A program made the translations under genes and the position numbers. Below the pieces are notes generated by a model. That model searched no databases and was not told where the DNA came from. It worked only from the letters and a program-made list of their open reading frames with translations. A stretch of 39,375 bases of DNA from a bacterium (GTDB taxonomy: Bacteria; SZUA-79; Acidulodesulfobacterales; Acidulodesulfobacteraceae). Positions 5,874 to 39,303 of the stretch are shown piece by piece; position 1 is the stretch's first letter, and the number at the start of each line of letters is the position of its first letter. The DNA lies in contig QIJE01000024.1 in NCBI GenBank assembly GCA_003232385.1, positions 1 to 39,375 of the forward strand. The letters run 5' to 3'.

Positions 5874-7136
5874 ATGAATTATTCACTGTCATTTATATTT
5901 TATATTTCAATATTATCATTATTTATATTTTTTTTATATATTTTTTTATCAAGAAAAATAAATGAAAATATATTGATTAAAACCTTATTCAATAAAAATA
6001 AGCTAAGGGAGCATGAAAAAGAAATAAACCGATATTTGGAGGTGCTTAACAATCTGAATGACGGTATAGCCGTCATTGACCGGGATAAAAATGTTATATT
6101 CGTAAACCCCGCTTTTAATAAAAATATCAGGTCGGCGGCAATACCCGCAAACGTTAAAAGATTTGACTTTTTAATAAGAAGCTTCGAACTTAATTCTTTA
6201 GTAGACAGCATAATCGCAAGTAACGATATTCATTTTATAGAAAAAAAAATTAAATACTTTGATAGAGCAGAAGAAAAAATAGTCAACTGTACAATATTTA
6301 AAATCGGCACATCCGACGAATATGCCGTCATAGTAAAAGATGCAACATACCTTCAAAAAATTGAAAATGCAAGAACAACATTTATTCAAAATATATCTCA
6401 CGAAATAAAAACTCCCATTACCGCTATAATGGGTTTTGCGGAAACTTTAAAAAACGGCGCAATTGAAAATCGCGAAACCAGTATTAAGTTTATAAATATA
6501 ATAGAACATCATACGAAAAAGCTTAATTATCTTGTGGACGACTTGATAACCTTGACCAACACGGAAACAGGGAAATCACCCGTAAAATATGAGAAAATAA
6601 ATATCAAATCAAGCGTGGAAAACTCGTTGATTCTATTCGAAAAGGAAATAAAAGAGAAATTAATAGATATAAACAATAATATCTTAGATATATCCTTTAC
6701 TTCAGACTCCTCAAAATTTAATCAGATTGTTACGAACCTGATTCAAAATGCTGTGAAATATACGGAAAAGGGGGGTATCGTAAAATTAGAAGGGTATATC
6801 ATAGATGCAAAAACGGCACATAGTTTTATATCGGAACCAGAAGATGCTTCTATCTTATGGAACAATCTTCCGTTAAAAGAAGGTTGCGAAAAATTCCTTT
6901 TCTTTTCCGTAGAAGATACGGGGATAGGTGTTAATTATACCAATCTTCTAAGGCTTGGGGAAAGATTTTTCAGGGTCGACAGCTCGCATACCGCCGGGCA
7001 TAAAGGGACGGGGCTTGGGCTTGCGATCGTCAAGCACACCCTTATACTCCTTAAGGGCAGCGCAGTAGTAAAGAGTAACCTCGGCAACGGATTTATTTTT
7101 TCGTTTATACTGCCGGAGATTGAAGAACCCTCCTGA
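5874..7136 (+). CDS. Membrane sensor histidine kinase, PhoR-like (420 aa)
   Basis: One N-terminal transmembrane helix (about 5-25) is followed by a PAS-type sensor region (about 50-155, with GIAVIDRDKNVIFVNPAF). The HisKA helix carries the phospho-acceptor His176 (NISHEIKTPI). The ATPase domain has an N box (TNLIQNAVKYT), G1 (VEDTGIGV) and G2 (GTGLGLAIVKH). There is almost no periplasmic loop, so the signal is probably sensed in the membrane or cytoplasm. No response regulator is next to it, making it an orphan; the NtrC-type regulator at 21695 is a distant, unproven partner. The ATG lacks a Shine-Dalgarno, and a TATAAT ends only 13 bases before it. Confidence 0.9.
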   Translation: MNYSLSFIFYISILSLFIFFLYIFLSRKINENILIKTLFNKNKLREHEKEINRYLEVLNNLNDGIAVIDRDKNVIFVNPAFNKNIRSAAIPANVKRFDFLIRSFELNSLVDSIIASNDIHFIEKKIKYFDRAEEKIVNCTIFKIGTSDEYAVIVKDATYLQKIENARTTFIQNISHEIKTPITAIMGFAETLKNGAIENRETSIKFINIIEHHTKKLNYLVDDLITLTNTETGKSPVKYEKINIKSSVENSLILFEKEIKEKLIDINNNILDISFTSDSSKFNQIVTNLIQNAVKYTEKGGIVKLEGYIIDAKTAHSFISEPEDASILWNNLPLKEGCEKFLFFSVEDTGIGVNYTNLLRLGERFFRVDSSHTAGHKGTGLGLAIVKHTLILLKGSAVVKSNLGNGFIFSFILPEIEEPS

Positions 7137-26002: not shown

Positions 26003-27034
26003 TTACGATATTTTTTCGTCATATCTTGATTCGATCTTGGCAAACTTATATACGCCTAACGATAAAAGCCATGCCGTCAGAAGTATGCCGACTATCGCTC
26101 CGCCCATCATCGCAAAAGAAAGGTTATTCAAAAAATCCCACGGCTCTCCGGTTAAATGAAACGTAGAACCTACGACCTGAAATGCTTCCACCGTTCCTAT
26201 GCAAAACGCTAAGAAAACGGAGATACTCGTAATAGATATATTATAAAATATCTTTCTTATCGGATTTAAAAACGCCCAGCTGTAAGCAAACTGCATTACT
26301 ACACCGTCGGTAGAATCAAGCAACATCATACCGGAAGCAAATAGCAAGGGCAGCGTCAAGACATCTATGAGCGGTCTGCCGGATAAGGCAAATACCGCCG
26401 ACATTGAAAGTATCGCAACTTCCGAGGCCGTATCAAAACCCAGACCGAATAGTATACCGACGAAAATCATCTGCCAGCTTGACGTTATAAGTTTCATCAC
26501 TCCGCCGAAAAAACGAAACATAAAGCCTCTTTTTAAAAGCTCTTCTTCCATTTTCTTATTACTGACATTCTTAAAATTCCTTGCCACTTTTATTATGCTT
26601 ATAAGAATAAGCAAATTCATAAATGCAATTATATATAAAAATAAAGCCGATATCCCCGTTCCAAGCACATTGCTTATACCGCCCAATACCGGATATGCCT
26701 TGACGACGAACTCCCCTAGGATAACGGTTACTATCGTTAAAACAAAAATAGAAAGCGAATGCCCGAGCGAAAAGAAAAAACCGACTCCGACCGGTTTTTT
26801 ACCGTCATTAATCAACTTTCTGGTGGTATTGTCTATGGCGGCAATATGGTCCGCATCAAGCGCATGTTTTAAACCGAAGAAAACGGCAAGTAAACCTAAA
26901 CTGAATAAAACAGGAAAAACACCGGCCCTCTCAACCAGGATAATTACGGAAAACAAGAGGAAAGAGATTAAAAATACATAAAGAAGAATGAGCCTCTGTT
27001 TGAAACTCAACGGGTTAAAAAGGTGTGAAAACAT
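26003..27034 (-). CDS. NiCoT-family nickel/cobalt permease, hydrogenase-linked copy (343 aa)
   Basis: A HoxN/NixA-type high-affinity nickel/cobalt importer with about eight transmembrane helices. The helix II signature is GLKHALDADHIAAIDNTTR, whose His-x4-Asp-His is essential in the family. Other family blocks are FFSLGHSLSIF, LGFDTASEVAIL and the late STDGVVMQFAYSWAF. It is very similar to the second copy at 38254-39303, in protein and in DNA (47 identical bases at 26256-26302). It lies 94 bases downstream of hypB, so it most likely supplies nickel to hydrogenase. A palindrome sits in its leader, whereas the other copy has a riboswitch. Metal preference is inference from context. Confidence 0.92.
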   Translation of the reverse strand: MFSHLFNPLSFKQRLILLYVFLISFLLFSVIILVERAGVFPVLFSLGLLAVFFGLKHALDADHIAAIDNTTRKLINDGKKPVGVGFFFSLGHSLSIFVLTIVTVILGEFVVKAYPVLGGISNVLGTGISALFLYIIAFMNLLILISIIKVARNFKNVSNKKMEEELLKRGFMFRFFGGVMKLITSSWQMIFVGILFGLGFDTASEVAILSMSAVFALSGRPLIDVLTLPLLFASGMMLLDSTDGVVMQFAYSWAFLNPIRKIFYNISITSISVFLAFCIGTVEAFQVVGSTFHLTGEPWDFLNNLSFAMMGGAIVGILLTAWLLSLGVYKFAKIESRYDEKIS

Positions 27035-27128: not shown

Positions 27129-27854
27129 TTATTTAGAAACCTTAGAGTTAATATTATTCTCCATAAAAGAGATGAAATCGGATAATCCGTTATTCTCAAT
27201 ATTTCCCGCTTTTTCATTCTTTTTGCAAAATGTTTCAAAGATTGCCAAATCTTTATTTACCGATAATGCATTCTCTTTTATCTTTGTAATACTTGAATCT
27301 AAAAAAGGCAAAAGGTCGATTTTATTTATGATCATAACCTTAGATTTGTAAAAAGCGGCGGGGTATTTCAAGGGTTTGTCGTCGCCCTCCGTTACGGAAA
27401 GAACAACCGCTTTGATATCCTCGCCAAGATTAAATGACGTGGGACAAACAAGATTCCCCACATTTTCTATAAATATTATATCCGCATCCTTTCTATTTAA
27501 ATTATTGAGCGCGCCGTTTACCATTTTTGCATCCAGATGGCACGTCCCGTTTGTAACAATTTGATATGCGGGTATGTCTAATTCATCTATTCTTTTTTTA
27601 TCTAAATCCGTCTCGACATCTCCCTCTATAACCGCCGGCTTAAAACCGTCCGATTTTAGAATAGGTACTATGGATTCCAATAACGACGTCTTGCCCGAAC
27701 CGGGAGAACTTAAAAAATTTATAACGAAGGCTTTACCGAATAACCTTTTATTCTTATTTGCAATGGCCTCATTTGTTTCAAGGGCGTTTCTTTGAATTGA
27801 TAACGACCTGCCGACACGCCTCCGACTTGAATTTAGCATAGCAATATGTCCCAT
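27129..27854 (-). CDS. hypB: Hydrogenase nickel incorporation GTPase HypB (241 aa)
   Basis: HypB is the SIMIBI-class GTPase that drives nickel delivery to the hydrogenase large subunit with HypA. Walker A is SPGSGKTS (50-57). The metal-site Cys105-His106 lies in NGTCHLDAKMV, switch-region Cys137 in NVGNLVCPTSFNLGED, and the guanine-specificity motif is NKID (177-180). The N-terminal CxxCGC nickel motif and the His-rich stretch seen in some HypBs are absent. It lies 57 bases after hypA and ahead of NiCoT copy 1. A later ATG at 27839 is a possible alternative start, and no strong ribosome site favours either. Confidence 0.94.
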   Translation of the reverse strand: MGHIAMLNSSRRRVGRSLSIQRNALETNEAIANKNKRLFGKAFVINFLSSPGSGKTSLLESIVPILKSDGFKPAVIEGDVETDLDKKRIDELDIPAYQIVTNGTCHLDAKMVNGALNNLNRKDADIIFIENVGNLVCPTSFNLGEDIKAVVLSVTEGDDKPLKYPAAFYKSKVMIINKIDLLPFLDSSITKIKENALSVNKDLAIFETFCKKNEKAGNIENNGLSDFISFMENNINSKVSK

Positions 27855-28309: not shown

Positions 28310-29638
28310 ATGGGAAACGGCAAAGGAAAACAACCCTTAAAAAATAAAAAAGATAATTCTTCCCCGATACTAAATAAAGATAGTAAATCCAATCTTAAGT
28401 GGGACCCCCTAAGGAACATCGCAGACGACCCCGATGAGGTTTTACGAAAGACGGACGAACGATTGGATAACCTCGAAAAAGAATACTTTAACGATGAAAA
28501 AGACAAAAGTGATAATATAGGAAATATTTTCGGTTTACACGGACTAACAAGAAGAGACTTCATTAAATGGACATCTCTTGTAACATCGGCACTGATGCTC
28601 CCGTATATATTTAAGCCGAGAGTGGCGAGGGCAGCCAATATACTTACGAGAACCCCGTTTATATGGCTCGAGATGTCGGACTGTATGGGGAATACGGAGG
28701 CATTTCTTAGAACCGCTCATCCCACACCCGCAGAAATCATTCTCAGCTATGTTAGCGTCAACTACATGGAATCGATAATGGCTCCCGCCGGTTATCAAGC
28801 GGAAGCGAGAATGGTTGAAACTGTCAAAAAATATAAGGGTAAATATATACTGGTGGTTGAAGGGGCAATCCCAATGGGTCTTGACGGAAAATACCTAACG
28901 ATAGGGGCAAAGGGGAAATCCGGATTAAAAATTACCCAAGAAGTATCTAAAAATGCCGGGGTTATAATTGCAGCGGGAAATTGCGCCTCTTACGGGGGTA
29001 TACCCGCCGCAAATCCGAACCCTACCTCTGCCGTCGGTCTCAGCTCCGTTACGGACAGAAAAGTGATAAATATACCTGCTTGCCCCGTTAATGCAGTAAA
29101 TTTAGTAGGTACGCTTATTGAATACGTATTGATAGGAAAACCCCCGCAGCTTGACAGTATCGGGAGACCCCTCTGGGCGTACTCCGAAAGACTTCATGAT
29201 ACCTGTTACAGAAGGGCGCATTTTGAAGCGGGTGAATATGTCAAAAACTGGGGCGATGACGGGGCAAAAAAACAATATTGCCTATACATGATGGGGTGCA
29301 AGGGGCCTTTTACGTGGAACAATTGCACTGTTGTCGAATATAATCAGGATTTAAGTTTTCCCATGAGGGCCGGACATGGTTGCATAGGGTGTTCCCAGCC
29401 GAAGTTTTGGGATAGAATGACCCCGTTCGAAGAACCTAACGAAAGTGCGAAAATTACGCTCCCGATGGTAGAGGCCACCGCCGATGAATTCGGTGCGGCA
29501 CTTTTTGGGGCTGCCGGCGCAGGAATTGCGGCTCATGCAATATACACGGGTGTCAAAAAGAAAAGAGAGAAAAAGAAAATATCTAAAAATGAGAAAAACA
29601 ATTCGGAAAAGGATAAAAGTAAGGACGATAAAAAATAA
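28310..29638 (+). CDS. [NiFe] hydrogenase small subunit, Tat-exported, membrane-anchored (442 aa)
   Basis: The electron-transfer subunit of a group 1 uptake hydrogenase. A twin-arginine signal (RRDFIKW at 81-87, hydrophobic core, cleavage near ARA109) is preceded by an unusual 80-residue charged extension; no internal ATG offers a later start. The mature part has proximal-cluster residues Cys125, a Cys in AAGNCASYGG and one in IPACPVN. The expected second Cys of the first motif is Asn128 (DCMGNTEAF). Distal (LHDTC, QYCLYMMGC) and medial (NNC, CIGC) ligands are all present. A C-terminal hydrophobic helix (about 393-412) with a lysine-rich tail anchors it to the membrane. Confidence 0.94.
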   Translation: MGNGKGKQPLKNKKDNSSPILNKDSKSNLKWDPLRNIADDPDEVLRKTDERLDNLEKEYFNDEKDKSDNIGNIFGLHGLTRRDFIKWTSLVTSALMLPYIFKPRVARAANILTRTPFIWLEMSDCMGNTEAFLRTAHPTPAEIILSYVSVNYMESIMAPAGYQAEARMVETVKKYKGKYILVVEGAIPMGLDGKYLTIGAKGKSGLKITQEVSKNAGVIIAAGNCASYGGIPAANPNPTSAVGLSSVTDRKVINIPACPVNAVNLVGTLIEYVLIGKPPQLDSIGRPLWAYSERLHDTCYRRAHFEAGEYVKNWGDDGAKKQYCLYMMGCKGPFTWNNCTVVEYNQDLSFPMRAGHGCIGCSQPKFWDRMTPFEEPNESAKITLPMVEATADEFGAALFGAAGAGIAAHAIYTGVKKKREKKKISKNEKNNSEKDKSKDDKK

Positions 29639-29666: not shown

Positions 29667-31358
29667 ATGTCAAGAAAGATCATAGTTGATCCGATAACGA
29701 GAATAGAAGGTCACCTGCGAATAGAGGCGATTCTTAACGGCAGCGGTAATGAAATAACCGAAGCATATTCGTCAAGCACCTTGTTCAGGGGCATAGAGCT
29801 CATACTTAACGGAAGAGCCCCCGAGGATGCAGGGCTTTTTGCTCAAAGAATTTGCGGGGTTTGTACCTATTCCCATTATGAGGCTGCCACATGGGCGGTT
29901 GAAAATGCACTTGGGATACACCCTCCGAAAAATGCAAGAATTGCACGAAATATATTAAAAGGCACGCAAATGGTTCAAGACCACTTAATACATTTTTACC
30001 AGCTTGCAGGATTAGACTGGGTTGATATAGTTTCTGCACTTAGTGCTAATCCGAAGAAAACGATGGATTTAGCATATGCCTATACTAAAACTCCTTATAA
30101 TGCAAGTTTGGCAAGGTTTGAAGAGGTGAAAACAAGGCTAAACGCCTTCGTTAAGTCTGGACAGCTCGGTCCATTCGCAGGCGGCTATTGGGGAAACCCG
30201 TCTTACAAGCTTCCGCCCGAAGGAAACCTTTTAATAGCATCACACTATTTGGATAACCTCAATATATTAAGGATACCTGCGCAAATTATAGCGATTTTAG
30301 GCTCTAAAGACCCGCATCCGCAAACTTGCGTCGTCGGAGGAATTTCATCTATCGCAGATATGATCAATCCTCACAGAATGGATGATATCCTATTTAGAAT
30401 GAATAAAATTACGGATTTTGTTAATAATGCATATATCCCCGATTTACTCACCGCTGCCCAATTTTATAAAGACGAAGCCCTTCAAGGTATCGGCGGGGGC
30501 CTTAAGAATTATTTATCTTACGGCGCATTTCCCCAAACAGACGATGAAAATCCTGAGCACGACTACTTGGCAAGGGGCGTTATATTTGACAGGGATATCG
30601 GCAACGTCATGGACTTAGACGAGAAAAAGATAACGGAATTCGTTACTCATTCATGGTATAAATATCCGAATGAAAAGACGGGGCTTAATCCGTCCGTAGG
30701 TGTTACCGCTCCTAATTATACGGGTTTAAATAAAAACGGCAGCCTTAAAGAAGACGAAAAATACAGCTGGGTTAAATCTCCAAGATATGAAAACAGAGCC
30801 GTGGAGGTAGGGCCCCTTGCCAGGACTCTTATAGCTTACGCGAAGGGCAACGAAAAAATTAAAACATTGGTAGACTATGTCTTAAAAACCTCCGGGCTGC
30901 CCGTAACGGCACTATTTTCAACTCTCGGAAGAACGGCGGCAAGGGGGATAGAGGCAAAATATTTAGCCGATGCATTAGAACCGTGGACTATAGAGCTGAT
31001 GAAAAATGTGGCGATAGACCAATCAAGCTGGACAAATTACGATATGCCTTCAAAAGAAATTATAGGTATCGGACTTGACGAAGCACCGAGGGGGGCATTG
31101 GGACATTGGGTCAGAATAAAAAATAAACGGATAACACACTATCAAATAGTCGTTCCGACGACATGGAACGCTTCCCCGAGAGACGGTTTTAATAACCCCG
31201 GAGCATATGAAGCCTCTTTGGTCGGAGTTAAACTTGCAAATGCTTCCGAACCCCTTGAAATTTTAAGGACGGTGCATTCATTTGACCCGTGTTTGGCTTG
31301 CGCCGTTCACATAATTGATCCGAAAACAGACGAAGTAAAAAAATTTAAAATCTGTTAA
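29667..31358 (+). CDS. [NiFe] hydrogenase large (catalytic) subunit (563 aa)
   Basis: This subunit carries the Ni-Fe(CN)2CO active site. The N-terminal ligands are Cys63 and Cys66 in RICGVCTYSH, and the C-terminal ligands Cys542 and Cys545 in DPCLACAVH. The N-terminal RIEGHLRIE is also typical. The maturation protease is expected to cut after His548, removing 15 residues (IIDPKTDEVKKFKIC). A strong GGAGGGGG ribosome site precedes the ATG, 28 bases after the small-subunit stop. It has no export signal and would be carried through Tat by its partner. Group 1 assignment rests on the partner's Tat signal and the cytochrome b. Confidence 0.96.
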   Translation: MSRKIIVDPITRIEGHLRIEAILNGSGNEITEAYSSSTLFRGIELILNGRAPEDAGLFAQRICGVCTYSHYEAATWAVENALGIHPPKNARIARNILKGTQMVQDHLIHFYQLAGLDWVDIVSALSANPKKTMDLAYAYTKTPYNASLARFEEVKTRLNAFVKSGQLGPFAGGYWGNPSYKLPPEGNLLIASHYLDNLNILRIPAQIIAILGSKDPHPQTCVVGGISSIADMINPHRMDDILFRMNKITDFVNNAYIPDLLTAAQFYKDEALQGIGGGLKNYLSYGAFPQTDDENPEHDYLARGVIFDRDIGNVMDLDEKKITEFVTHSWYKYPNEKTGLNPSVGVTAPNYTGLNKNGSLKEDEKYSWVKSPRYENRAVEVGPLARTLIAYAKGNEKIKTLVDYVLKTSGLPVTALFSTLGRTAARGIEAKYLADALEPWTIELMKNVAIDQSSWTNYDMPSKEIIGIGLDEAPRGALGHWVRIKNKRITHYQIVVPTTWNASPRDGFNNPGAYEASLVGVKLANASEPLEILRTVHSFDPCLACAVHIIDPKTDEVKKFKIC

Positions 31359-31394: not shown

Positions 31395-32159
31395 ATGGAA
31401 GATAAAGAGAAAAGATACGGCGAGATACGATTAATTCATAGAATGACGCTTATAAAAAGAATTATCCACTGGTCGCTTTTTCTTGCCATTATTAATAATA
31501 TAATTACCGGTTTTTATATAGCGTATCCCTTTCTTATATTTGGAAAAACTCCTACACAATTAAATTCTATCTCAACCGGGATTCTAAGTTCGGGAGAGAC
31601 ATACAGGGCGTTTATAATGACGTGGATGAGGGAATTTCATTTTATCGGCGCAATCGTGATAGACGTTACCTTTTTTGTCTGGCTGTATTTAGCTTTTTTC
31701 TCATGGAAAGAACCTCTTTACAAAAGTTTCGTGCCCTTTGGAGGTAAAATGGCGGAAGCGGGGAAAATGATTAAGCATTATTTTACGCTTAAAGACAGGC
31801 CTGCAACGACCCGTTATCAAGACCCTTTAAATGCCATAATATTCATTATTTTTCATCTGCTTATTTTATTTCAAATGTTAACGGGATTCCAGCTGTATGT
31901 GGCTTCGTTTACCGGAACTTCGGCCATAGGCGGTTGGTGGCCGTGGATTCTACATTTTACGACCGACTGGACGCTTGTCGCATTCGGCGGGCTGACCGGT
32001 GTCACTCTTGTTCATCTGTTTGTAATGTGGATAATCATAATATTCATGATTTATCATGTCTATATAGAAATTTGGCGTACGGTAATGTGGAAAGAGGGAG
32101 ATATCTCAATACCGTTCGGGGGCTATAAGTATACGAGAAATAAAATAGAATACAAATAA
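31395..32159 (+). CDS. Hydrogenase b-type cytochrome subunit (254 aa)
   Basis: A di-haem membrane cytochrome b of the HyaC/HupC type that takes electrons from the small subunit to the quinone pool. Four or five transmembrane helices carry the expected histidines: RIIHWSLFL, REFHFIGAI, IIFHLLILFQ, LVHLFVMW and MIYHVYIEIW. The final helix and the following RTVMWKEGD resemble the family end. It is third in the operon, 36 bases after the large subunit, behind an AAGGGG ribosome site. Quinone type is not visible, but MqnA in the window argues for menaquinone. Confidence 0.92.
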   Translation: MEDKEKRYGEIRLIHRMTLIKRIIHWSLFLAIINNIITGFYIAYPFLIFGKTPTQLNSISTGILSSGETYRAFIMTWMREFHFIGAIVIDVTFFVWLYLAFFSWKEPLYKSFVPFGGKMAEAGKMIKHYFTLKDRPATTRYQDPLNAIIFIIFHLLILFQMLTGFQLYVASFTGTSAIGGWWPWILHFTTDWTLVAFGGLTGVTLVHLFVMWIIIIFMIYHVYIEIWRTVMWKEGDISIPFGGYKYTRNKIEYK

Positions 32160-32182
32160 AACATAATTGGAATTTTTTGCTT

Positions 32183-32689
32183 ATGACGGGAATTGTGGGA
32201 ATCGGCAATCTGCTGTTGAAGGACGAGGGATTCGGGATTCACTTCATTGATTACCTTAGAAAAAAATATATATTTGACCCGAATATAAGGGTAATCGATG
32301 GAAGTACACTGGGTTACGGACTTTTGGACGATATATTTAATTTTGACAACGTTATCGTCATAGATGCTCTAAAAACAGATGAAAAACCGGGGGGGATATT
32401 TAAATTCGACAGCGAAAACATTCCTGTTAATTTAATGAAGAAAACCGCCCATGATGTTGAATTTATCGATGTAATAACCATGTGCAAACTACAGGGACAT
32501 AACCCCAAAATAATAATTTTTGCAATATCTCCCGAGGACGCTGAAGGCGTCGGAATGGATATCTCCCTTCCCCTAAAAAAGGCTATACCGCGCCTTGAAG
32601 CCCTTGTACTGGAAGAAATAAAAATATTGGGCCTAAAATGGAGCATAAATACTGATATGCAAGAGAATTACGCGAACGGAATCTCTTAA
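32183..32689 (+). CDS. Hydrogenase maturation protease, HyaD/HybD family (168 aa)
   Basis: This endopeptidase trims the large-subunit C-terminus after nickel insertion. The nickel-contacting residues correspond to the Glu in GIGNLLLKDEGFG, the Asp in VIVIDALK and the His in LQGHNPKII. I start at the ATG 32183 because GGAA lies about 10 bases upstream; an in-frame TTG at 32177 adds two residues but is too close to that site. It is the last gene of the structural operon and ends 12 bases from the convergent hypF stop. No second protease is in the window. Confidence 0.92.
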   Translation: MTGIVGIGNLLLKDEGFGIHFIDYLRKKYIFDPNIRVIDGSTLGYGLLDDIFNFDNVIVIDALKTDEKPGGIFKFDSENIPVNLMKKTAHDVEFIDVITMCKLQGHNPKIIIFAISPEDAEGVGMDISLPLKKAIPRLEALVLEEIKILGLKWSINTDMQENYANGIS

Positions 32690-32701: not shown

Positions 32702-35212
32702 TTATTTATCGTCTATCAGCCCGCCGTAAACTGCCTGTCCTAAAGAAATACCGCCGTCATTCGGGGGTATTTTTCTGTTAAAAAAGACGCTGAATCCGTT
32801 CTCGTTCAAAATTTTAGCGGTTTTTTCCGGCAAAAACGCATTCTGAAATACTCCGCCGCTCATGCAAGCGTTTTTACAGCCTATTTTTAAAGCGATATCT
32901 TTTATAACTGAGGCAATAGTATTTATAAACCTCTCTGCTATATCTTTATATAATGCCGTAAGTGATCCTGAATCTTCGGGATTACGATTATTGATGATAA
33001 TTTCTATAATCTGAATCAGCATCGGACCGTAATCGACTATAAACAGGTCGTCTATTTTATCGTAATCTACGGCGTACCCGAAGCAATCGGATTTTTCTAT
33101 CTCATTATCATACGAGTCCCGCTTATTTTCAGCCTCCTCCTTGCCGCATAGGTCTTCTAAATATACCGCTGCCTCTCCTTCATAAGAGATATCCCTTTTG
33201 AATCCGCACAAACAAGAAACGGCATCAAAAATTCTCCCGCAAGAAGATGTATATGAAGAGTTTATCCCTCTACTCCACATCTTGAAAAATATGTTTATAT
33301 TTTTCGCCGGAATACCCGTTAGTTTCAGCAAGGTATCGGGGTTAAAATCTTTTTTGTCCGGGGAGCAAACGCTTAATTTTCTCATAAAATCGTAATTTTC
33401 GACATACCTGCCTCTATTTTCGGTAAAAAGAGTAAACAGGAGGCTTAAAAGAACCCTTTGGGGCGACTTAACGGCTTTATCGCCCCCTATGAGCCTAAAT
33501 CTTTTAAAGGTCCCTACTCTCTTTAAATGTATATAATTTCCCTTAAAAAATTCCCCTCCCCAAATACTTCCGTCATCTCCATAACCCGTTCCGTCAAATG
33601 CCACGCCAAAAACATCGTCTTTCAATCCTAAGCCGTTTTCAGCCATACATGAAATAATGTGAGATCTATGATGCTGCAGGGCTACATACTTTATACCCTT
33701 TTTCTTCGCCAAATCTTTCGCCCATTTTGTATTATCGTAACGAGGATGACTATCGCAAACAATGAGGCTCGGCTTAAAATTATAAAATGTTTCAAAGTCT
33801 TCCACATTTTCGGTAAAATTAATAAAGCTATCTATATTATCTAAGTCTCCGTTATGCTGACTCAAGATAACCGCCCCCTTACTGTCGTCATCGTTAATAT
33901 TGCCGCTATACGCCATTGCAAACGTGTTTTTAAGATAAGAGCCCATCGCAAGAACATTTCTTTTCAATCCAAAAGGCAATTCAATAGGATCCGGAACATA
34001 GCCCCTTGAACGTCTGATAAAAACCCGATCATTACCCTTAGTACCTTTAATTATTTTTATGACGGAATCATCGCATCTTCTATAAATATCTCTATTATGA
34101 ATTAAAAAACCGTCCGCGATGGATTTTAATTTAAAAAGAGCCTCGTCATTGTCCTTAACGATAGGCTGTCCGGCGATATTCGCCGATGTTGCTACCAACG
34201 GTTTATGAAAAAGGCTGAAAATAATATGATGGATCGGCGTGTAAGGCAATAAAACACCTATATTTTTTGTCCCACAATTCACGAAATAAGAAAGATTTCG
34301 CTTATCTTTCAATAAAACGATAGGCCTCCTCCTTGATAACAACAAAGACATCGAAATATTATCGGCATAGGCATATTTTGAAACCTCGCATATATCTTTA
34401 AACATGACGGCAAACGGTTTCTTCGGCCTATTTTTTCGCCCCCTTAATAATTTTACGGCATCGTCGTTTGCGGCATCGGCCATCAAATGAAAACCGCCCA
34501 CTCCTTTAACACAAACGATACCGCCGTTTTCTAAAATCTGCACGATGGTTTTAATAGCCTTAAAACCCTTTATTTTCTCATCCTTTTTCGAGCCTAACGA
34601 GTCCGGGACAATAAACTCGACCTCCGGCCCGCATGCGAAGCATCCGTTGGGCTCTGCATGAAACCGCCTGTTTGTCGGATCCTCATATTCAATTTCACAC
34701 TCAGGGCACATTTTAAACTTATCCATTGCAGTCGATACCCTGTCGTAAGGTAATTTTTTAGTGATCGTAAATCTCGGACCGCAATCGGTACAATTTATAA
34801 ACGGGTAGAAATACCTCCTATCGGAAGGATCCAAGAGTTCTTTTAAACATTCGTCACAGGTTGCAATATCAGGGGGGATTATAAGATTTAAATTTTCCGC
34901 ATTATTTGTGTCATAGGTTCTATCGGATTTTTTAATTTCAAAATCCCTATAAAAGACCGGTTTTAAAAAACGAAAGGTTTTTACGTCAATAACGGCAAGG
35001 GGCGGTTTTTCGGAATTTAATGATTTCATAAAATTCATTAAATCATTTTCTATTCCTTGAGCATCAATTGTAACGCCGCCTAAGTCATTTAAAATATTTC
35101 CTCTAATGGAGTATTTTTTTGCAAGTTTAAAAACAAATGGCCTAAAACCTACGCCTTGAACTCTACCCGATATATTAATTATGACCCTTTTTAAATGTTC
35201 ATTATCTTTCAT
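32702..35212 (-). CDS. hypF: Carbamoyltransferase HypF (836 aa)
   Basis: HypF makes the carbamoyl group that becomes the active-site cyanide, transferring it from carbamoyl phosphate to HypE. Domains in order: acylphosphatase-like (GRVQGVGFRPFVFKLA, 16-31), two Cys4 zinc fingers (CDEC...CTDC and CPEC...CFAC, about 115-195), a YrdC-like domain with KGVGGFHLMADA, and a Kae1-like domain (HHRSHI, FDGTGYGDDG, SGGVFQNAFL). It is somewhat longer than the common 750 residues, mainly in the C-terminal half. It is fourth in the minus-strand set hypC-D-E-F, 29 bases after hypE. Confidence 0.96.
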   Translation of the reverse strand: MKDNEHLKRVIINISGRVQGVGFRPFVFKLAKKYSIRGNILNDLGGVTIDAQGIENDLMNFMKSLNSEKPPLAVIDVKTFRFLKPVFYRDFEIKKSDRTYDTNNAENLNLIIPPDIATCDECLKELLDPSDRRYFYPFINCTDCGPRFTITKKLPYDRVSTAMDKFKMCPECEIEYEDPTNRRFHAEPNGCFACGPEVEFIVPDSLGSKKDEKIKGFKAIKTIVQILENGGIVCVKGVGGFHLMADAANDDAVKLLRGRKNRPKKPFAVMFKDICEVSKYAYADNISMSLLLSRRRPIVLLKDKRNLSYFVNCGTKNIGVLLPYTPIHHIIFSLFHKPLVATSANIAGQPIVKDNDEALFKLKSIADGFLIHNRDIYRRCDDSVIKIIKGTKGNDRVFIRRSRGYVPDPIELPFGLKRNVLAMGSYLKNTFAMAYSGNINDDDSKGAVILSQHNGDLDNIDSFINFTENVEDFETFYNFKPSLIVCDSHPRYDNTKWAKDLAKKKGIKYVALQHHRSHIISCMAENGLGLKDDVFGVAFDGTGYGDDGSIWGGEFFKGNYIHLKRVGTFKRFRLIGGDKAVKSPQRVLLSLLFTLFTENRGRYVENYDFMRKLSVCSPDKKDFNPDTLLKLTGIPAKNINIFFKMWSRGINSSYTSSCGRIFDAVSCLCGFKRDISYEGEAAVYLEDLCGKEEAENKRDSYDNEIEKSDCFGYAVDYDKIDDLFIVDYGPMLIQIIEIIINNRNPEDSGSLTALYKDIAERFINTIASVIKDIALKIGCKNACMSGGVFQNAFLPEKTAKILNENGFSVFFNRKIPPNDGGISLGQAVYGGLIDDK

Positions 35213-35241: not shown

Positions 35242-36310
35242 TTAGCAAATTCGAGGTAAAAGTTCACCGGACGGATAATCCAACAATCTATCTACGCCGT
35301 AAATACCTCGCAAAATCACCTTGCCTTTAAATCTGCCATCACTTCTATTTTTATCTCCCGCAATTCCGATTACCTTGGCATTCTTACCGGACGGATGAGA
35401 CCTGAGAATCTCTATTACCCTATTCTCATACCCGGACTTGACCGCAAAGATTACCCTCCCCTCACATGCAAGTTGATAGGGTTCAAAACCCAGAAACTCG
35501 CAGAAACCCTTCACGCTATCCTTTATTGGAATCTCATTCTCTTCTATGTGAATGTTAATACCCGCAGCAGAAGCCCACTCGTTAAGGACCGCGGCAAGCC
35601 CGCCCCTTGTTGCATCTCTGATAGCGCTGACTCGGCACCCTTGCTTTAAAACAAGTTCAATCATGTCCCAAAGGGAAGCACAGTCGCTTTCTATTGCCAC
35701 ATCCATATCTATGCCGTCTCTTTGCGACATGACGGCGCTTCCGTGGTCCCCGACATCGCCGGAAACAATAATGACGTCCCCGTCCGTTATATTATAAACG
35801 GAAATATTTTCATATAAAACTTCGCCTATTCCGCTTGTATTTATAAAAATACCGTCCGCTTTCCCCACGGGGACAACCTTTGTATCTCCGGTCACAATCT
35901 TAACCCCGCTTTTTTTAGCCTCTTGAACCACCGAATTTATAATCTTTTTTAAATCTTCCATTAAAAACCCTTCCTCTATTATGAGTCCCAAGCTCAAAAA
36001 AAGCGGCTTAGCCCCCATAACCGAGAGGTCGTTTACCGTTCCCGCAACAGATAATTTACCTATATCTCCGCCCTTGAAAAATATCGGGCTTACCGTGAAG
36101 CTGTCTGTGGTAAAGGCTATCTTTTTCGGAAATGGCGGCGTCTTCCAGTAACTTTATTTGATTTTGTCCGTTATCGTAATCTATAATATTCGAATCAGGT
36201 CCGTAAAATTCCGCGAATAATATATCTTTAATCAATGCAGCGGTCTCTCTTCCGCCACCGCCGTGGGAAAGCAAAATCTTTTCATCTCCGTTCAATTTTT
36301 TATAATTCAT
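35242..36310 (-). pseudogene. hypE: HypE gene interrupted by a one-base frameshift
   Basis: HypE dehydrates the HypF-made thiocarboxamide to thiocyanate on its C-terminal cysteine, supplying cyanide to iron. The start is the ATG at 36310 (MNYKKLNGDE), four bases past the hypD stop. The first frame runs through LLSHGGGGRET and LEDAAISEK, then becomes nonsense and stops at 36056. From about 36120 the next frame reads IAFTTDSFTVSPIFF and GGDIGKLSVAGTVNDLSVMGAKP, and continues to the conserved PRIC end at 35242. The switch falls near a five-A run at 36122-36126. The interval length equals 356 codons plus one base. All other parts look intact, so a sequencing error, recent mutation or +1 recoding are all possible. 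Confidence 0.85.
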
Positions 36311-36314
36311 AGGA

Positions 36315-37427
36315 TTAAAAATTACGATATTTATAATACGCCGAGCATGCCCCTTCACTGGAAACCATACACGCCCCCACTGGATTTTCGGGAATACAAA
36401 CCTTGCCGAATAAGGGGCAGTCAACCGGTTTTAGCTTTCCTCTAAGTATTTCTCCGCATTTGCAACCCGTATTTTCTTTAAAGTCTTCATTTAGTTCTAA
36501 TGCTTTTAATTCATCCGCAAAAACATATTCGGCATCAAAATATTTAAACTCATCCCTTAATCTTAAACCGCTTTTTGCAATATTGCCGAAACCCCTCCAT
36601 TCAAACTCGTCCCTTACCCTAAAATATTTGTTGACTAAATCTTGAGCCTTTTTATTACCCTCTTCTTTAACTGCTCTTTTATATGCAATTTCCACCGAAG
36701 GGTTATTGTCGTTAATCTGCCTGACTATCAAAAGTGTTCCGCTTAAAATATCATACGGTTCAAATCCGGAAATAACCGCCGATTTCTTGTATTTTTGCAC
36801 AATATCGCTATAGATGCCGCTTCCGGTGATAACGCTTACATGACCCGGACAAATAAATCCATCTATTAAACTGTCATTTGAATCCAAAATAGCGTTTATC
36901 GGCGGAGGAACGAGAACGTGGTTAATATAAAAGAACACATTTTCTATTTTTTTTGTTATTACTTCTTCAAGAAGCGCCGCCGTCATGGGTGTAGTGGTTT
37001 CGAACCCGATTGCGAAAAAAACAATCTTTTTATTCTTATTGCTCTTATCCCCTACTATTTTTATGATATCAAGCGGGGAATATATCATTCTAATATCTTT
37101 CCCCTTAGCCCTTTCTTTTATGAGGGAACTATTTGTTCCGGGAACCCTCATTATATCCCCGTAAGCTACAAGTATGACGTCCGGCAAACCCGCAATACAG
37201 ATGGCCGCGTCTATTCTTTTTATCGGCATAACGCAAACGGGGCAACCCGGACCGTGAAGAAAGTTTATTTTGTCTTTGATTAAGGCATTTAATCCATATT
37301 TCATAATAGAGTGGGTATGCCCGCCGCATATCTCCATTATATTTATCGTTTCTTTGGCCTCGCTGTTTATTAAAAAAACCAAGCGTTCTATGTCGTTTTT
37401 TTGCTTAAAAGAGGAATATATGCTCAT
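36315..37427 (-). CDS. hypD: Hydrogenase maturation protein HypD (370 aa)
   Basis: HypD is the [4Fe-4S] scaffold that, with HypC, assembles Fe(CN)2CO. Conserved redox cysteines are Cys34 in MEICGGHTHS, and Cys62 and Cys65 in GPGCPVC. The C-terminal cluster ligands are spread over CKCGEI, VDCPLFGKVCIP and GACMVSSEGACSAYY. The family segment FFAIGFETTTP is present. Length is typical. It begins 22 bases after hypC and ends four bases before hypE. Confidence 0.96.
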   Translation of the reverse strand: MSIYSSFKQKNDIERLVFLINSEAKETINIMEICGGHTHSIMKYGLNALIKDKINFLHGPGCPVCVMPIKRIDAAICIAGLPDVILVAYGDIMRVPGTNSSLIKERAKGKDIRMIYSPLDIIKIVGDKSNKNKKIVFFAIGFETTTPMTAALLEEVITKKIENVFFYINHVLVPPPINAILDSNDSLIDGFICPGHVSVITGSGIYSDIVQKYKKSAVISGFEPYDILSGTLLIVRQINDNNPSVEIAYKRAVKEEGNKKAQDLVNKYFRVRDEFEWRGFGNIAKSGLRLRDEFKYFDAEYVFADELKALELNEDFKENTGCKCGEILRGKLKPVDCPLFGKVCIPENPVGACMVSSEGACSAYYKYRNF

Positions 37428-38253: not shown

Positions 38254-39303
38254 TTATTCATCCCCCTCTATATCTAACCCGCTTCCGCCATATCTTGATT
38301 CAACCTTAGCAAACTTATATACGCCTAATGATAAGAGCCATGCCGATGCAAGTATGATCGCTATCATTCCCCCCAGTACCGCGAAGGAAAGGTGATTAAG
38401 GAAATCCCAAGGCTCTCCGGCTAAATTAAATTTCATACCTACGACCTGAAGCCACTCTATCGTTCCTATACAAAACGCTAAAAAAATAGAAATGCTTGTA
38501 ATAGATATATTATAAAAAATCTTCCTTATCGGATTTAAAAACGCCCAGCTGTAAGCAAACTGCATTACTACGCCGTCCGTTGAATCCAATAATACCATGG
38601 CGGATGAAAATACCATCGGTAGTATCAAGACATCTATGAGCGGCCTGCCGTTAGCGGCAAATATTGCCGACATTGAAAGTATTGCAACTTCCGTTGCCGT
38701 ATCGAAACCTATGCCGAATAATATGCCGACGAAGAACATGTGCCAACTCGACGTTATAAGCTTCATTACTCCTCCAAAAAAACGAAACATAAAGCCTCTC
38801 TTTAAAAGCTCGGCTTCCATTGCTTTATTGTCGGCATTCCTGTATTTTCTTACCACCTTTATTATGCTTATAAGGATAAGCAGGTTCATAAACGCGATTA
38901 TGTATAAAAATAAAGCCGATATCCCTGTCCCAAGCATATCGCCTATGCCACCCAACACGGGATATTTCTTGATTATAAACTCCCCTAGAATGACGGTTAT
39001 TACTGTTAAAGTGAAAATAGAAAGCGAATGACCGAGGGAAAAGAAGAACCCGACTCCGACCGGTTTTTTACCGTCGTTCATTAATTTTCTGGTGGTATTA
39101 TCTATCGCGGCAATATGGTCCGCATCCATCGCATGCTTTAAACCGAAAAAAAAGGCAAGCGAACCTAGGCCTAATAGGGCAGGAAAAACCCTTGACCGAT
39201 CAATTAAGATAATAATGGAAATTACAACGAAAGAGATTAAAAACGCATAAAGAAGAATGAGTCTTCGTTTAAAACTCGATAAATTAAAAAGGTGTGAGAA
39301 CAT
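38254..39303 (-). CDS. NiCoT-family nickel/cobalt permease, cobalamin-linked copy (349 aa)
   Basis: A close paralogue of the transporter at 26003-27034, with the same helix II signature (GLKHAMDADHIAAIDNTTR) and overall layout. Differences cluster in the first helix, around residues 275-305 and at the C-terminus, which has an extra acidic GGSGLDIEGDE tail. It is followed after two bases by cbiX and preceded by the end of a probable cobalamin riboswitch, so cobalt import for B12 is its likely job. A GGGAGGT ribosome site precedes the ATG. The two copies are direct repeats about 12 kb apart that flank the hydrogenase region. Confidence 0.92.
   Translation of the reverse strand: MFSHLFNLSSFKRRLILLYAFLISFVVISIIILIDRSRVFPALLGLGSLAFFFGLKHAMDADHIAAIDNTTRKLMNDGKKPVGVGFFFSLGHSLSIFTLTVITVILGEFIIKKYPVLGGIGDMLGTGISALFLYIIAFMNLLILISIIKVVRKYRNADNKAMEAELLKRGFMFRFFGGVMKLITSSWHMFFVGILFGIGFDTATEVAILSMSAIFAANGRPLIDVLILPMVFSSAMVLLDSTDGVVMQFAYSWAFLNPIRKIFYNISITSISIFLAFCIGTIEWLQVVGMKFNLAGEPWDFLNHLSFAVLGGMIAIILASAWLLSLGVYKFAKVESRYGGSGLDIEGDE

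Follow-up and report, generated by a model that had tools for sequence, protein, structure and literature searches.

We analyzed a 39,375-nt stretch of DNA (the window; assembly GCA_003232385.1, contig QIJE01000024.1) from a bacterium assigned through its named relatives to Ca. Acidulodesulfobacterales. The gene at positions 28310-29638 (+) starts with ATG, is preceded by an AGGAGG Shine-Dalgarno sequence and encodes a 442-residue protein, which was identified as the small subunit of a group 1 [NiFe] hydrogenase by matches to TIGR00391 (395 bits, cut-off 179.5), PF14720 and PF01058. It is followed on the same strand by the genes for the large subunit (29667-31358, 563 residues; PF00374 with 663 bits), in which the active-site motifs RICGVC and DPCLAC are both intact, for a b-type cytochrome subunit (31395-32159; PF01292 above its cut-off, TIGR02125 with 114.8 bits slightly below its cut-off of 121.5) and for a maturation endopeptidase of the HyaD/HycI type (32177-32689; PF01750). 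The small subunit carries a Tat motif (TRRDFIKW) at residues 80-87 and a hydrophobic stretch near its C-terminus. The cytochrome is likely the quinone-linked electron outlet. Its adjoining gene, the family match of the small subunit, the Tat motif and the two CxxC motifs of the large subunit are those of membrane-bound group 1 uptake enzymes, and judged from sequence the locus most likely encodes a Tat-exported, membrane-bound H2-uptake [NiFe] hydrogenase of group 1 together with its protease. About 80 residues (28310-28560, +) precede the twin-arginine motif, which is unusually long. This n-region contains a stretch conserved in the family (KWDPLR...PDEVLKK.D.RLD.LEKE), and longish n-regions are also present in the related enzymes L149, L150, L075 and L076.

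Further maturation genes are located on the minus strand around the structural genes. Reading of the translations revealed a HypB-like GTPase (27129-27854), a HypF-like carbamoyltransferase (32702-35212) and a HypD-like protein (36315-37427). The hypE gene (35242-36424, -) is broken across two frames near position 36128, as the TIGR02124 profile matched 35245-36129 and 36128-36280 in different frames. It was the sole true hypE match in a search of the host genome with this profile; in most family members having the gene, the same search found hypE in one frame. The break could be either an assembly error, which would have no consequence, or a real loss of maturation, in which case the strain would be unable to build the active site. 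Unless it is an assembly error, the host genome may thus not mature its hydrogenase, which speaks against H2 uptake in this particular genome. The host genome (1.54 Mb, 95% complete) was found to contain no small or large hydrogenase subunit other than those described here, and dsrAB is present. Two similar genes that by eye resemble NiCoT nickel/cobalt transporters (26003-27034 and 38254-39303, both -) flank the hydrogenase and hyp region.

Codons 125-128 of the small-subunit gene (28682-28693, +) read TGT ATG GGG AAT and encode C-M-G-N, exactly as described in a first-pass annotation of this DNA. According to translation and alignment, Cys125 (28682-28684) is the first ligand of the proximal iron-sulfur cluster and Asn128 (28691-28693) occupies the site of the second proximal cysteine, so that the C-x-G-C motif of a standard four-cysteine cluster is not present. 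Alignments with PDB homologs (HoxK, wild type and variants) were free of gaps across the motif and placed a cysteine opposite Asn128. The same annotation had listed the other proximal, medial and distal ligands as present, and all of them were recovered by alignment. These are Cys225 (28982-28984, within GNCASYGG) and Cys258 (29081-29083, within ACPVN) for the proximal cluster, Cys339, Cys358 and Cys361 with Pro351 at the usual fourth place for the medial cluster, and His296, Cys299, Cys324 and Cys330 for the distal cluster. The small subunit contains nine cysteines in total (125, 225, 258, 299, 324, 330, 339, 358, and 361). Since all nine belong to the three clusters, none is spare to serve as fourth proximal ligand, and the objection that another cysteine of this subunit might fill the position does not apply.

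Conservation of the motif was determined in 30 genomes of Ca. Acidulodesulfobacterales, 22 of which have the small-subunit gene. All 22 encode CMGN, with AAT as codon for Asn128 in 18 and AAC in four of them. Among named relatives of the host, Candidatus Acididesulfobacter diazotrophicus gave one matching record. The split hypE on the same contig might raise the suspicion that Asn128, too, results from a sequencing or assembly error or from decay of the gene. This explanation is hardly credible, because 22 genomes from separate assemblies all have this residue, specified by two synonymous codons, and because all other ligands and motifs of the protein are intact. Asn128 is thus neither a chance event nor the read error considered in the first-pass annotation, and the hypE break has no bearing on the family-wide asparagine. 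Judging from these sequences, residue 128 is under constraint in the family.

In a broader survey, small subunits from 386 genomes across the domain and three plasmid records were aligned, with the family reduced to two rows for counting. In the resulting set of 71 small subunits (labeled L plus number), the position equivalent to residue 128 is occupied by Cys in 50, by Asn in 12 and by Asp in nine, showing that a residue other than cysteine is common there (21/71). Named examples with Asn include Sulfobacillus acidophilus (DCDGN) as well as Sulfurimonas paralvinellae and Sulfurovum mangrovi (both DCAGN). The proposal that the substitution is a clade-wide trait of one group 1 branch was therefore confirmed in its first part by the 22 family genomes, but not in its second, as Asn or Asp is spread over almost a third of the surveyed enzymes with apparently repeated origins. 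In three further enzymes (L115, L128, and L131), Asp stands in for the first proximal ligand, equivalent to Cys125, and the second ligand is a cysteine; an exchange of this kind has been reported for Methanosarcina barkeri (PMC4070099). Another enzyme, L083 (G125:C367), is of the Cys type (DCAGC, CPVN), yet otherwise resembles the Asn/Asp clade and is possibly a reversion or an intermediate.

A tree of 52 large subunits placed the window enzyme in a clade (support 100/100) within a group of 19 rows (100/100) that is shared with Cys-type enzymes. A second clade, in which Asn and Asp enzymes are mixed (100/98), is separate from the window clade. With weaker support (82/94), the window clade stands beside the Cys enzyme L149. 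A single clade of all Asn rows was rejected with both the large subunit (p-AU 2e-50) and the small subunit (p-AU 1e-4). A single clade of Asn plus Asp rows was rejected with the large subunit (p-AU 1e-4), but not with the small subunit (0.21). Several origins of Asn or Asp at position 128 appear to be the better reading of these data, which also allow for an exchange of small subunits between lineages. With respect to the established groups, the window enzyme lies among the Cys-type relatives L149-L151 and L154, which we take to be group 1b-like. It falls outside a clade of putative 1f type (L137-L139, L141, L144-L148, and L159; branch 100/98), and its supported clade is separate from the Hyb-type group 1c enzyme Hyd-2 of E. 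coli. It is also outside the clade of E. coli Hyd-1 and HoxK and differs from the O2-tolerant group 1d by Gly127 and Gly230 in the small and Gln60 in the large subunit. Enzymes of group 1h/5 have C-D-G-D and lack a Tat signal, whereas the window enzyme has CMGN and a Tat motif; HofK of this type was a weak match.

The exchange of this cysteine for asparagine has already been published for enzymes of groups 1 and 2a, and the window enzyme is not a new enzyme type. In Methylacidimicrobium, one of the four proximal cysteines of HupS is replaced by Asn, and Asn or Asp was described for Roseiflexus, Geobacter and Frankia hydrogenases of group 1f, with Asn also occurring in group 2a (Mohammadi et al., 2017; PMC5364354). 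HupS of Nostoc punctiforme has Asn, and the enzyme of Geobacter metalloreducens Asp, in place of the second proximal Cys, and the engineered variants C81N and C81D of the Alteromonas enzyme were active, the Cys-to-Asn variant retaining measurable H2 evolution (Yonemoto et al., 2014; PMC4070099). A search of the HydDB paper yielded nothing on Asn or on the proximal cluster. For the type of cluster, these precedents are at odds. The structure of Huc revealed [3Fe-4S] clusters at all three positions, based on density and EPR (Grinter et al., 2023; PMC10017518), whereas isolated Nostoc HupS is reported to contain two [4Fe-4S] clusters and one [3Fe-4S] cluster according to EPR (reviewed in PMC4463661).

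We consider the window enzyme to be an ordinary H2-uptake hydrogenase in which three cysteines would hold the proximal cluster and Asn128, fixed throughout the family, would stand at the fourth position, and assign to this reading a probability of roughly 0.6. H2 would be oxidized at the usual NiFe site, and we infer that electrons would pass from the proximal cluster on Cys125, Cys225 and Cys258 to the medial and then the distal cluster, and onward through cytochrome b into the quinone pool. In the large subunit, His217, by alignment the equivalent of an invariant histidine contacting the proximal cluster, may stabilize this cluster. By analogy with Huc, a [3Fe-4S] cluster is the most likely type, at slightly better than even odds, because a fourth thiolate is lacking; BLASTP aligned the motif of HucS (CSGN) with its Cys on Cys125 and its Asn on Asn128. 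Against this assignment stand the two [4Fe-4S] clusters reported for Nostoc HupS, which likewise has Asn, and the sequence identity of just 26% to Huc, the other clusters of which differ as well. Moreover, the Asp enzyme of Cupriavidus retains a 3Cys-1Asp cluster (PMC5364354, PMC6813726).

The latter observation and that on HupS fit instead to a site-differentiated [4Fe-4S] cluster, whose fourth iron would be bound by the amide of Asn128, by water or by His217 of the large subunit, comparable to group 1h clusters with their 3Cys-1Asp ligation. The choice of these Asp enzymes for comparison in the first-pass annotation was sound, as HofK has CDGD at the motif. The interchange of Asn and Asp inside one clade suggests a shared coordinating role, and in structures from Salmonella and E. 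coli a conserved large-subunit histidine is located 3.3-4.2 Å from an iron (PMC3940037). In Huc, however, which has Asn at this position and a known structure, all three clusters are [3Fe-4S]. Amide side chains, moreover, are weak ligands of iron. We regard the site-differentiated cluster as a possible, though less probable, arrangement. Completion of the proximal cluster from the other chain by Cys221 of the large subunit (codon at 30327-30329, +) is very unlikely. This residue follows four positions after His217 and is present in the window enzyme and some relatives, but is replaced by Thr or Ile in others, including L043, L042, L031, L039, L029 and L040, all of which have Asn128; not being conserved, it is no general replacement ligand. 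Either a [3Fe-4S] or a site-differentiated [4Fe-4S] cluster could, as we infer, raise the cluster potential and favor H2 oxidation over H2 production, and the suggestion that Asn changes the potential is plausible.

A scan of the alignment columns against the Cys or Asn/Asp state of position 128 identified residue 260 as the strongest partner. It is located two residues past Cys258 and is Val in the window enzyme (29087-29089, +). Pro occurs at this position in 33 of the 50 Cys enzymes and in none of the 21 Asn/Asp enzymes (naive Fisher test 9e-8, for a column picked post hoc among about 440), and HucS (CPA) and HofK (CPV) obey the same rule. In a sign test, all differing independent pairs pointed in one direction (n = 4), four pairs allowing only p ≥ 0.125. 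The Cys enzyme L149 combines Cys128 with Tyr260, a state that would fit a loss of Pro260 before that of Cys128, but is suggestive only. As a tentative hypothesis, which we hold to be doubtful rather than probable, Asn-type group 1 enzymes might repeatedly have gained a high-potential [3Fe-4S] proximal cluster, so that two [3Fe-4S] clusters would follow one another, with loss of Pro260 as a permissive second-shell step. If so, tuning in the style of Huc would be a convergent strategy among anaerobic and microaerobic uptake enzymes. The survey provides a second-shell partner, residue 260, that is open to testing.

Asn128 could also mark an adaptation to oxygen, either tolerance or another altered response, in analogy to the six-cysteine cluster of group 1d or the Asp cluster of group 1h. 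Insensitivity to O2 has been described for a group 1h enzyme that has Asp here (PMC6813726), and 25 of the 30 family genomes contain a cytochrome bd subunit, suggesting that these organisms may meet oxygen. Nevertheless, an oxygen adaptation is improbable. Residue 60 of the large subunit is Gln, the O2-sensitive type in the alignment, whereas Glu at this site is characteristic of O2-tolerant enzymes (PMC3940037), and the extra cysteines of the tolerant 1d enzymes are absent, residues 127 and 230 both being Gly. The Methylacidimicrobium enzyme, described for the genus as having Asn (PMC5364354), is reported to be O2-sensitive: strain M. tartarophylax 4AC respires H2 only below 40 μM O2 (PMC6813726). 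The host genome itself has dsrAB but, in contrast to most of its family, gave no match for cytochrome bd, and its sole COX1-like match is a short stretch in a small membrane ORF. The altered oxygen response proposed in the first-pass annotation thus found no support.

The proximal cluster adjoins the NiFe site and helps to set catalytic bias and behavior toward O2. To our knowledge, no enzyme of this family has been purified and the cluster type of group 1 Asn enzymes has never been measured, which makes the family moderately useful. With its fixed Asn and canonical medial and distal clusters, it isolates a single change and could settle the question of the cluster type. The exchange at residue 128 itself is fixed in the family, appears to have evolved repeatedly and has been published before.

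Several known systems share features with the window enzyme. Huc of Mycobacterium smegmatis (group 2a; 7UTD, 7UUR, 7UUS, and 8DQV) has Asn at the aligned position and Cys-Pro-Ala rather than Cys-Pro-Pro, but it forms an octamer on a stalk, whereas the window enzyme is Tat-exported and accompanied by a cytochrome b. HupS of Nostoc punctiforme, also of group 2a, has the same Cys-to-Asn exchange (PMC4070099), but additionally distal His-to-Gln and medial Pro-to-Lys exchanges, while the window enzyme retains both His and Pro. The group 1f enzymes of Geobacter, Roseiflexus and Frankia show an exchange of Cys for Asn or Asp like that of the window enzyme, but in the tree of large subunits the putative 1f clade and that of the window enzyme are separate. 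Methylacidimicrobium HupS/HynA (HydDB group 1b), compared by its published description, is an uptake enzyme with a b-type cytochrome and one proximal Cys replaced by Asn in an acidophilic host, and strain 4AC grows on H2 with it as single uptake hydrogenase (PMC5364354, PMC6813726); unlike the window host, however, Methylacidimicrobium is a verrucomicrobial methanotroph respiring O2. Within the survey, the enzymes from plasmids of Sulfobacillus acidophilus (L075), Sulfurimonas paralvinellae (L076) and Sulfurovum mangrovi (L074) resemble the window enzyme in the D-C-x-G-N motif. On the Sulfurovum mangrovi plasmid, the small-subunit gene (6001-7055) matches as two pieces with no annotated CDS and is probably frameshifted, the large subunit and the cytochrome being annotated. 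All three enzymes have C-P-A-N, share about 44-50% identity with the window small subunit and show the same gene order of small subunit, large subunit and cytochrome b.
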